The translations under genes and the position numbers were made by a program. The notes beneath the pieces are model-generated. The model saw only the letters and a program-made list of their open reading frames with translations, was not told the origin of the DNA and did no database searches. A stretch of 64,000 nucleotides of DNA, taken from Thiothrix litoralis (GTDB taxonomy: Bacteria; Pseudomonadota; Gammaproteobacteria; Thiotrichales; Thiotrichaceae). The stretch is taken from contig NZ_CP072801.1 in NCBI RefSeq assembly GCF_017901135.1, positions 372,001 through 436,000 of the forward strand, written 5' to 3'. How positions within the stretch are numbered: position 1 is the first letter of the stretch; the number at the start of each line of letters is the position of its first letter. Positions 58,181-60,448 of the stretch are shown piece by piece.

Positions 58181-58450
58181 ATGGCAATTGCAGCAAACCG
58201 TATCGACATGCGTGTCAATGAACAGGTTAAACAGCTTGCGGAACGTGCAGCTAATGCATTGGGATGCACTGTCACGGAATACCTTGTGCGCCTTATTCAG
58301 CAAGATGCGCCAAAAGTTTTACGGGGTGAAACTGAAATCGTACTCAGTAATGCACAGTTTGACCGTTTTGCCGAGTTATGCAAACAAACGACGCCACCCA
58401 GTCCACGTATTAGGGAAGCTGCCCGCCGCCTTGATACCGAAGGATTTTGA
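58181..58450 (+). CDS. Type II antitoxin, TacA/DUF1778-like
   Basis: 89 residues. N-terminal ribbon-helix-helix (RIDMRVNEQVKQLAERAANALGCTVTEYLVRLI) that binds its own promoter, followed by VLSNAQFDRFAELC, the segment DUF1778 antitoxins use to block their GNAT toxin. AGGA lies 8 nt before the ATG. The toxin gene begins 3 bp after its stop. Forms a complete TacAT-type module with the next gene. Confidence 0.9.
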   Translation: MAIAANRIDMRVNEQVKQLAERAANALGCTVTEYLVRLIQQDAPKVLRGETEIVLSNAQFDRFAELCKQTTPPSPRIREAARRLDTEGF

Positions 58451-58452
58451 GC

Positions 58453-58965
58453 ATGGCATTTCACCAAACGGTTGAACGGGTGGATAAAGGCAAGCATGAC
58501 CTTAAGTTGTTTGATTGTGGCAAGCCGTCCATGAACCAGTTCCTGAGCCGCTTTGCTGCCAAACATGCCGAACTTGGCTTAAGCAGTACGTGGGTGTTGC
58601 TGGAAGATGTGCAGGCTGCCAAATTACCCGTTGCTGCGTATTACACGCTGGCTTCTGCTACGGCCAACAAATCCAGTCTGCCGACCTCGCAATCCTTGCC
58701 ACATTACCCGGTTCCGGTGGTGCTGTTGGCTCGGCTGGCTATCAACAGGCAACATCAAGGCAAAGGGCTGGGAGCGAAAATTCTCATCAGTGCTTTGCGT
58801 CATAGCGTGCAATTGATGGAGCAGGGTTTGCCCGCTTTTGGCCTGATCCTGGATGTGCTGGATGAGGATGCCTTGACGTTCTATCAGCGCTTTGATTTCT
58901 TTGAACCCTTGACTGACGATCCGATGCGGCTGTTTGTGGGGATGGGCAGGTTGCGGCAAGTATGA
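58453..58965 (+). CDS. GNAT-family toxin, TacT-like
   Basis: 170 residues. Acetyltransferase of the TacT group, which acetylates aminoacyl-tRNA and stops translation. Markers: the N-terminal FDCGKPSMNQFLSRFAAKHAELG, VAAYYTLASA, the acetyl-CoA loop RLAINRQHQGKGLGAKIL, and the C-terminal FYQRFDFFEPLTDDPMRLFV with the likely catalytic Tyr. ATG 58453 is chosen over a TTG two codons earlier that overlaps the antitoxin stop. Confidence 0.9.
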   Translation: MAFHQTVERVDKGKHDLKLFDCGKPSMNQFLSRFAAKHAELGLSSTWVLLEDVQAAKLPVAAYYTLASATANKSSLPTSQSLPHYPVPVVLLARLAINRQHQGKGLGAKILISALRHSVQLMEQGLPAFGLILDVLDEDALTFYQRFDFFEPLTDDPMRLFVGMGRLRQV

Positions 58966-59028
58966 TTTTACCGCTGGATAAATGCTATCCTTAACCCATC
59001 ATAAGCAAATCACCCATCCAGCCAGCCA

Positions 59029-60240
59029 ATGCAGCAGATTTTTATCAGTTACGCCCAAGACCAAGCGCACGGGCAACGCCTCGCCGAACAAGTGCAGCAG
59101 CAGTTGCACGGGGCGGGTTTTGCCGTGTTCCGCGATGTCAGCGGTGTGATTCCCGGCACAAAATGGGTGCACGAAATCGAACGCCAGTTGAAAGCCAGTG
59201 AGCTGGTGGTGCTGGTGGTCTCCGCTAAGGCATTGCATTCAGATTGGGTATTCGCCGAATTTGATATGGCGAAGGAGCACCAGATACCCATCATCCCGGT
59301 GTTTGCCGAAGCGCTGTCTGCACCGTTGTGGTTACGTCATCTCCAACGGCTGGATTTTTCCCGTGAAGCCGATTGGCAACGGTTGATGCAAGCGATCAGC
59401 AGCCATATCACGGTGCCGAGTCCGCAAGCTCCTTACTCACCTCCTGTCCCTGTGCTTGTTAAGCAGCAGCCTGATCTGGCGTGGGCAAATGCATCAGGTG
59501 ATGACCAATACGGGCGTTACGCCGATGTGGATGTAAAAGGCGTGATCCAGCGTTTTCGGTGGTTACAACCGGGCAAGTTCCTGATGGGGTCGCCGCAATC
59601 TGAGAAGGAGCGCAGTGATGATGAGGTTCAGCATGAAGTCACGCTGAGCCAAGGTTTTTGGCTGGCGGATACGGCTTGTACCCAAGCCTTGTGGCAAGCC
59701 GTGATGGGCAATAACCCCGCCGACTTTTCAGATGACCTGCGTAATCCGGTGGAGCAGGTGAGTTGGGATCATACGCAAGGTTTCATTCAACAGCTCAATG
59801 GGGTTGTGTCGGGTCTGAAAGCGAAGCTGCCAACCGAAGCGCAATGGGAATATGCCTGCCGTGCCGGAAGCACCTCGCCGTTTTCTTTTGGCACAAACAT
59901 TACACCCGAACAGGTCAATTACGATGGTAATTATCCGTATGCAGGTGGCAAAAAAGGTTTGTATCGGGAGAAAACCGTTCCGGTCAAATCGCTTCCAGCG
60001 AATCCGTGGGGCTTGTACGAAATGTACGGCAACGTCTGGGAATGGTGTCAGGATTGGTATGGTTCTTATCCGGCGGAGCCGGTCAGGAACCCGGAGGGTT
60101 CACAAACAGGCGTTCTGCGCGTCGTTCGCGGCGGTTCGTGGTACAGCGTCGGCTGGCTCGTGCGTTCTGCCATCCGTCGCAGGCTCGATCCCGCTAACCG
60201 TGACGACTTCATTGGCTTCCGGCTTGCCCTAGGTCATTGA
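59029..60240 (+). CDS. TIR domain fused to FGE/C-type-lectin-like domain; probable DGR target
   Basis: 403 residues. The TIR domain (about 1-125: IFISYAQDQAHGQRLAEQV, VSAKALHSDWVFAEFDMAK) has Glu77 in the place of the usual NADase glutamate. After a proline-rich linker, residues 165-403 form a formylglycine-generating-enzyme-like (CLec) fold: GKFLMGSPQSEKERSDDE, LPTEAQWEYACRAG, GNVWEWCQDWYG, RVVRGGSW, IGFRLALGH. The two catalytic cysteines of true FGE are missing, so it is a binding rather than a modifying domain. The C-terminal 35 codons have the composition of a DGR variable repeat (see that entry). Likely a defence sensor: ligand binding triggers TIR NAD+ cleavage (inference). Next to a TacAT pair. 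Confidence 0.9.
   Translation: MQQIFISYAQDQAHGQRLAEQVQQQLHGAGFAVFRDVSGVIPGTKWVHEIERQLKASELVVLVVSAKALHSDWVFAEFDMAKEHQIPIIPVFAEALSAPLWLRHLQRLDFSREADWQRLMQAISSHITVPSPQAPYSPPVPVLVKQQPDLAWANASGDDQYGRYADVDVKGVIQRFRWLQPGKFLMGSPQSEKERSDDEVQHEVTLSQGFWLADTACTQALWQAVMGNNPADFSDDLRNPVEQVSWDHTQGFIQQLNGVVSGLKAKLPTEAQWEYACRAGSTSPFSFGTNITPEQVNYDGNYPYAGGKKGLYREKTVPVKSLPANPWGLYEMYGNVWEWCQDWYGSYPAEPVRNPEGSQTGVLRVVRGGSWYSVGWLVRSAIRRRLDPANRDDFIGFRLALGH
60112..60236 (+). other. Candidate variable repeat (VR) of a diversity-generating retroelement
   Basis: Codons 372-394 of the TIR-FGE gene. At the positions that vary in FGE-type DGR targets, the codons are TAC, AGC, GTC (372-374), CTC (377), ATC (382), CGC (384), CTC (386), AAC (390), GAC, GAC, TTC (392-394): all eleven end in C, as if derived from AAC by changing only adenines. 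The invariant framework RGGSW, RSA, PANR and GFR is kept. CTC leucine is otherwise uncommon nearby, where CTG and TTG dominate. Boundaries are approximate; a template repeat was not found in the window. Confidence 0.7.
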
Positions 60241-60448
60241 GCTCAGGCCAGCAGGGCGGCGGAGCCGCAGCCGCCGGAGGCGGTACTCTTGCGCGGACGG
60301 GGATGGCGTGGGCAGGCGCGTCGCGGAGCAGCGCCAGACCATGACAGCACCGGGAGCGCCCGCCGCGTAGCGGTGGTGATTGCATCGCTGGCAAAACCTG
60401 TCTTTCCTCTATATCATCACACGTTTATATTCCCCACCGGAAGTACGC
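60241..60448. other. GC-rich spacer after the TIR-FGE gene
   Basis: No gene. A GGCGGC / GCCGCC hairpin (60255-60275, 9-nt loop) lies 15 nt after the stop, in the place where DGR targets often have an initiation-of-mutagenic-homing tract and hairpin. The spacer to about 60380 is far richer in G and C than the flanks; the last 70 bp return to normal composition before hisC. Confidence 0.5.

Follow-up and report, generated by a model that had tools for sequence, protein, structure and literature searches.

The question raised by this locus is whether a gene that joins a TIR domain to an FGE-type C-type-lectin domain in Thiothrix litoralis bears a repeat written by a diversity-generating retroelement (DGR), and whether the encoded protein can still be rewritten in this genome. 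The gene lies in a stretch of 64,000 nucleotides (the window; contig NZ_CP072801.1, positions 372,001 to 436,000), for which a reading made from the sequence alone (the sequence-only reading) had proposed a DGR-like variable repeat and an adaptable immune receptor. The features of the locus are collected in Table 1.

Table 1. Coordinates of features at the TIR-FGE locus, as positions in the window
Feature	Position	Strand	Remarks
ORFs of a TacA-like antitoxin and a GNAT-type acetyltransferase, immediately 5′ of the TIR-FGE gene	58181..58965	+	association only
TIR-FGE gene, DGR target	59029..60240	+	403 aa; Pfam domains, structural relatives
Core of the variable repeat (VR), 116 nt	60114..60229	+	28 A and 88 non-A positions in the template repeat of congener G008
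TAGGTC, putative VR-type 3′ boundary (initiation of mutagenic homing, IMH)	60230..60235	+	by position and by analogy with the available text of PMC3240598
Hairpin-like inverted repeat GCGGC-GGA-GCCGC, 3′ of the VR	60256..60268	+	
Second hairpin-like inverted repeat CCGCC-GGA-GGCGG	60271..60283	+	

Results

The TIR-FGE gene and the hisC site

Pfam places a TIR_2 domain at residues 4–119 (E 1.3e-20) and an FGE-sulfatase/C-type-lectin domain at residues 178–400 (E 8.3e-44), so the fusion proposed from the sequence alone is borne out, and the Thiothrix-like host guessed at the same time is indeed the source of the DNA. Within the TIR domain, E77 of the motif SDWVFAE occupies what we take to be the position of the SARM1 catalytic Glu. 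The top solved relative of the protein is TvpA (2y3c), both by sequence (phmmer E 3.4e-22) and by fold (Foldseek E 5.3e-18, TM 0.71 on the target). The whole-protein model is of moderate quality (pLDDT 78.5, pTM 0.61), and the TIR part is present in 3 of the 20 rows of its alignment. TvpA is a variable protein of Treponema denticola and is a DGR target itself. PMC4891356 agrees with this assignment.

The TacA-GNAT pair and the TIR-FGE gene (58181-60240) stand between a hydrolase gene and hisC. In 7 of the 16 genus genomes nothing occupies this site, and the hydrolase gene directly abuts hisC (G004, G006, G008, G010, G012, G013, and G014). The site is a candidate defence hot spot. The genome nearest to that of T. 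litoralis (G000), G012 (hisC 97%), lacks both the pair and the TIR-FGE gene at the corresponding site, and the FGE gene left to it looks, by eye, frameshifted near the start. TIR-FGE orthologues adjoin hisC in G002 and G007, with 65% and 70% identity, respectively, across almost their entire length, while the copy at the hisC locus of G001 is broken and has no VR part. In a tree of hisC and downstream sequence, 1 of 13 inner branches was well supported, so that no number of independent losses is taken from it. Outside the genus, Leucothrix pacifica (L137) has a full-length relative, 51% identical over residues 1–403. The T. litoralis reading frame is open, and outside the VR its dN is well under dS, at 0.17 and 1.02 against G007 and 0.21 and 1.31 against G002, with dS near saturation in both comparisons.

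The repeat of the hisC-adjacent orthologue of G007 (L240:121-1290) was missed by our VR search at E 1e-4. Its framework is unlike that of the window copy, as though different templates had served orthologous genes in the same position.

The variable repeat

The VR sits at the 3′ end of the TIR-FGE gene. We searched the one-contig genome (4,284,843 bases) with a 138-nt repeat query and found three strong places, at 432112 (the window copy), 889179, and 891458, with the fourth-ranked match reaching an E value of 0.079 only. Of the two further repeats, 457–459 kb from the window copy, one terminates a 1031-aa FGE protein, encoded after genes for a MoxR-type AAA protein and a trypsin-like protein, and the other terminates an FGE protein of 297 aa. 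As reference we used the template repeat (TR) of congener G008, which is not a template of T. litoralis itself. Against this TR, the window VR is changed at 18 of 28 A positions and at 0 of 88 non-A positions (Fisher p 2.3e-14). The VR of the 1031-aa target gives the same counts (18/28 and 0/88, p 2.3e-14), and that of the 297-aa target is changed at 15 of 28 A and 0 of 88 non-A positions (p 1.4e-11). When the three VRs are compared with one another, 20 of 116 columns differ, every one of the 20 being A in the G008 TR, and the 84 A-site cells across the three hold 33 A, 30 G, 15 T, and 6 C.

The first description of the repeat had counted eleven hypervariable codons ending in C. The C endings hold, but the number is ten, since ten codons of the window VR align to TR AAC codons, all of them C-ending (TAC AGC GTC CTC CGC CTC AAC GAC GAC TTC, of which the codon of residue 390 is unchanged from the TR as AAC), and the remaining NNC codon of the block, that of residue 375, reads GGC both here and in the TR. 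Three TR codons that are not of the NNC form are also altered, again at adenines only (AAG to CTG, AGG to TGG, and ATA to ATT).

Upstream of the repeat, the three paralogue pairs of this genome share 48.8, 41.6, and 47.1% of third codon positions, whereas within the VR framework 38 of 38 third positions are identical in each pair. From this contrast we conclude that the three genes were all rewritten from a single template acting in trans. A chance run of NNC codons and plain gene conversion are both rejected by this comparison together with the adenine test. Two signs had been named in advance as telling against a DGR here: ordinary third-position variation in the segment, which is absent, and a genome with neither TR nor reverse transcriptase (RT), which is what we find below. 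The pattern of substitutions confirms that the 116-nt core, which lies in the FGE/C-type-lectin part of this TIR protein, is a true DGR variable repeat.

The 3′ boundary of the repeat also behaves as in a DGR. The boundary pentamer is AGGTC in 24 of the 25 VRs listed, whereas all 6 TRs listed have AGCTC, the sole VR without AGGTC being one from G001 (L098). As in the BPP-1 phage DGR, to judge from the available text of PMC3240598, the IMH-like boundary is followed by short inverted repeats. The two candidate hairpins of T. litoralis, which lie behind a cellular TIR target, have stems of 5 bp with 3-nt loops and so are shorter than the 7–10 bp (with 4-nt loops) of that phage family.

Loss of the cassette in T. 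litoralis

The intact arrangement is seen in G008. Two targets equivalent to those of T. litoralis, one encoding an FGE protein of 964 aa and the other a small FGE gene, flank a cassette in which an ORF with an HRDC domain (168 aa, Pfam E 1.4e-16) overlaps an RT ORF (363 aa from the first start), followed by a noncoding TR. The accessory gene is thus of the HRDC type, instead of the avd gene that had been expected. An SQ motif is the mark of DGR RTs; the G008 RT carries IGSLTSQ and YMDD, and the other RT classes listed from the genus carry QGxxxSP with xADD. With the G008 RT as query, we found no match to a DGR-type RT in the T. litoralis genome (4.28 Mb, one contig) at E values up to 10. As a positive control, the same query matches 10 of 16 genus genomes at E 0.001, and full-length, stop-free RT matches of at least 54% identity occur in five genomes (G008 itself, G005, G007 twice, G014, and G001). 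The T. litoralis assembly is rated 100% complete, and the RT absence rests on this one assembly.

The only PF00078 match in T. litoralis has the motifs QGAPTSP/YADD, and this RT (L001, 519 aa from ATG) was rejected as a DGR RT on its motif. It lies at 1.618 Mb (L020:8319-9878) beside what we read as WGR/SWIM-like genes, and similar RTs are found in several congeners.

No usable TR was found in this genome; what is left is a stub of 25 nt, 3 of them changed, at a distance of 457,873 bases from the end of the window VR. The stub belongs to the remains of a cassette at about 889.57-890.25 kb of the contig, between the two other targets. Here we find the start of an HRDC gene (28/33 nt match), a weak match to the RT end and TR leader, the TR stub itself (L019:10122-10146, 22/25), and the sequence that follows the TR (97/106). 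Beyond the HRDC start, no accessory gene was found at the old site in the comparison with congener HRDC cassettes. The search for a TR and a DGR RT that the sequence-only reading had called for therefore yields relics only, and neither its adaptable receptor nor an active DGR is supported for T. litoralis. Taken together, the comparisons show, as far as sequence can, one-template overwriting of distant genes and a deleted cassette.

Also in the scar region are genes for a BrnA antitoxin (E 5.5e-17) and a DUF559 protein (E 2.7e-39), together with a BrnT fragment (E 5.7e-8) that falls short of the profile cut-off. The BrnA gene and the shortened BrnT ORF (52 aa, matching positions 1–20 only of a 77-position profile) lie inside the deleted cassette (L019:9629-10034). 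An Rfam scan of L019 9000-11800 gave nothing at the gathering score.

The stub is changed at 3 of 19 non-A positions, all C to T, against 0 of 264 framework positions in the three VRs (p 0.0003), or 0 of 114 when VR third positions are used (p 0.0025). This contrast is weak, given so short a stub and the use of similarity to set its ends. It would mean either a recent loss, with the receptors maintained by selection, or a template that survived elsewhere for some time. Among 72,556 plasmid records none matched the TR region, and viral contigs gave no exact match to the repeat pattern. A plasmid or viral source was rejected on these results and on the RT relatives found on plasmids, which are less than 60% identical, the best about 36%.

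The repeat class and its cassettes in other genomes

VR-like matches at E 1e-4 are present in 12 of 16 genus genomes. The class-specific pattern, with at most 2 mismatches, occurs at 10 places in 6 of 63 family genomes (G008, G000, G003, G006, G012, and G015), and the sole copy among the 63 with all variable A intact is the G008 TR. No SQ-motif RT was found in the other five carriers, a few RT rows having been judged by search score alone. PF00078 has no match in G015 and one each in G000 and G006 (QGAPTSP), and the matches of G003 and G012 are of QGAILSP, QGSILSP, or QGAPTSP class or have no recognisable SQ motif. Each species is represented by one genome.

The sequence-only reading had noted reports of TIR-fused DGR targets in multicellular proteobacteria, and TIR-FGE proteins are targets in the congeners G008 and G007. 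The G008 TIR-FGE gene (contig 6) is changed at 18 of 28 A and 1 of 88 non-A positions relative to the TR on contig 5 and looks like a trans target, and a 551-aa TIR-FGE protein adjoining an RT in G007 gives 16/30 and 0/86. We applied the adenine test to 12 chosen VRs from five genomes, taking for every VR a single TR from the same genome as reference. Non-A changes number 0-1 in seven and 3 in two; the remaining three do not match the TR used, these being the hisC-adjacent TIR-FGE of G002 (13/89 non-A) and two VRs of G001 (29/84 and 32/84). The ill-fitting VRs may belong to other template classes or may have drifted.

Cassettes in various states of damage occur elsewhere. In G014, HRDC 1–154 abuts RT 959–999, and the other DGR of that genome is intact. 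G002 is without RT 495–774, G004 retains RT 21–464 in one locus, and G019 retains about 50 nt of the RT end. By eye, G004, G006, and G013 (L088, L089, and L217) share an HRDC stub of about 12 codons at the expected cassette position, and this stub enters GC-rich palindromic repeats flanking a DUF559-like ORF. G004 and G008 each have a second DGR-motif RT of 370 aa (34–35% identity). In G008, whose DGR is apparently intact, the VR of the small FGE target (L079:9471-9600) is one base short and the frame is shifted.

Discussion

We consider it very probable that the TIR-FGE protein of T. litoralis was once a hypermutable TIR sensor, diversified in trans and now frozen after loss of the cassette. 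An HRDC-RT-TR cassette about 458 kb away, between the two other FGE targets, would have diversified the TIR-FGE gene in trans by writing copies of one template, altered at its adenines, into each of the three genes. Later, the cassette would have been deleted in this lineage, so that the binding face is now fixed. From the identity of the domains, the FGE face would bind an invader ligand, and binding would switch on NAD+ cleavage by the TIR domain, so that the cell is stopped or killed; the specificity, though fixed, may still be useful.

A different fate for the three targets, that they are relics heading for loss and without present function, is possible though improbable. It would account for the sister genome G012, with no TIR-FGE gene at the corresponding site and an apparent frameshift in its remaining FGE gene, and for the broken G001 copy. 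In T. litoralis, however, all three targets keep open frames and unaltered frameworks, and the dN of the TIR-FGE gene outside the VR is far under dS, although that ratio averages over the time before the loss as well. Less likely still is that a DGR remains active on the TIR-FGE gene, with the TR and RT carried by a plasmid missing from the assembly or by other members of the population. Frameworks that match a congener TR throughout while the stub has changed speak for it, and the available text of Dore et al. (PMC10907252) describes strain variants with and without RT at one locus. Against this stand a complete contig with neither component, visible damage at the ancestral site, and plasmid records that give no TR region and only distant RTs. 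Ordinary gene conversion or selection on the binding face, with no retroelement, has next to no chance of explaining the repeats: FGE paralogues of one genome could recombine and ligand sites can vary fast, but the changes are confined to TR adenines in each of three copies, the corresponding site of a congener is occupied by an RT together with a noncoding TR, and VR and TR differ at a boundary base in DGR-like fashion.

The frozen-sensor reading places T. litoralis beside several known systems. In the available text of PMC10907252, Thiohalocapsa PB-PSB1, also a multicellular gammaproteobacterium, has DGR-diversified C-type-lectin/FGE domains, putative conflict-system targets with MoxR, trypsin, and TIR parts, trans targets served by a distant TR with a perfect non-adenine match, and degenerate loci with MITE-like repeats and without RT or TR. 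According to that text PB-PSB1 keeps one complete locus per DGR class, whereas T. litoralis retains no DGR-type RT, and the T. litoralis target consists of TIR and FGE alone (403 aa). The word Thiothrix is absent from the main text of that paper; literature searches joining diversity-generating retroelement with Thiothrix found no work, and Thiothrix with TIR domain and defense gave nothing except work on Prosthecochloris. In Treponema denticola, as far as the available text of PMC4891356 describes it, the DGR has an HRDC accessory gene, several gains or losses have been proposed, and strains without RT and TR have leftover FGE-like targets with adenine-site differences. The targets there are largely lipoproteins, whereas the T. 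litoralis target is fused to a TIR effector and the genome has a visible deletion scar with a TR stub, the intact state being shown by a congener. FGS/FGE domains and DGRs are also known in MoxR-vWA-VMAP ternary systems (Kaur et al. 2020, available text of PMC7159879), which the two other targets resemble in adjoining MoxR-type AAA and trypsin-like genes. The TIR-FGE gene, in contrast, stands apart from the MoxR locus, and no vWA or VMAP domain was matched by Pfam in the T. litoralis proteins examined.

The kind of system is thus already known, and what is added here is this member of it, with TIR fused directly to the target, a reach of 458 kb, and a deletion scar that can still be seen. Surveys that begin from the RT (Roux et al.) would overlook such targets. 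For the genus as a whole we offer a tentative proposal, which we hold to be possible but not probable, that a trans DGR diversifies TIR and conflict sensors and that lineages repeatedly delete the RT and TR and keep a useful variant as a fixed, heritable receptor; the template is gone in 5 of 6 genomes with the repeat class, and all three T. litoralis receptor frameworks are unchanged despite decay of the stub. A genus that holds both hypermutable and frozen TIR-FGE and MoxR-linked sensors would be a natural experiment on diversification versus fixed specificity.
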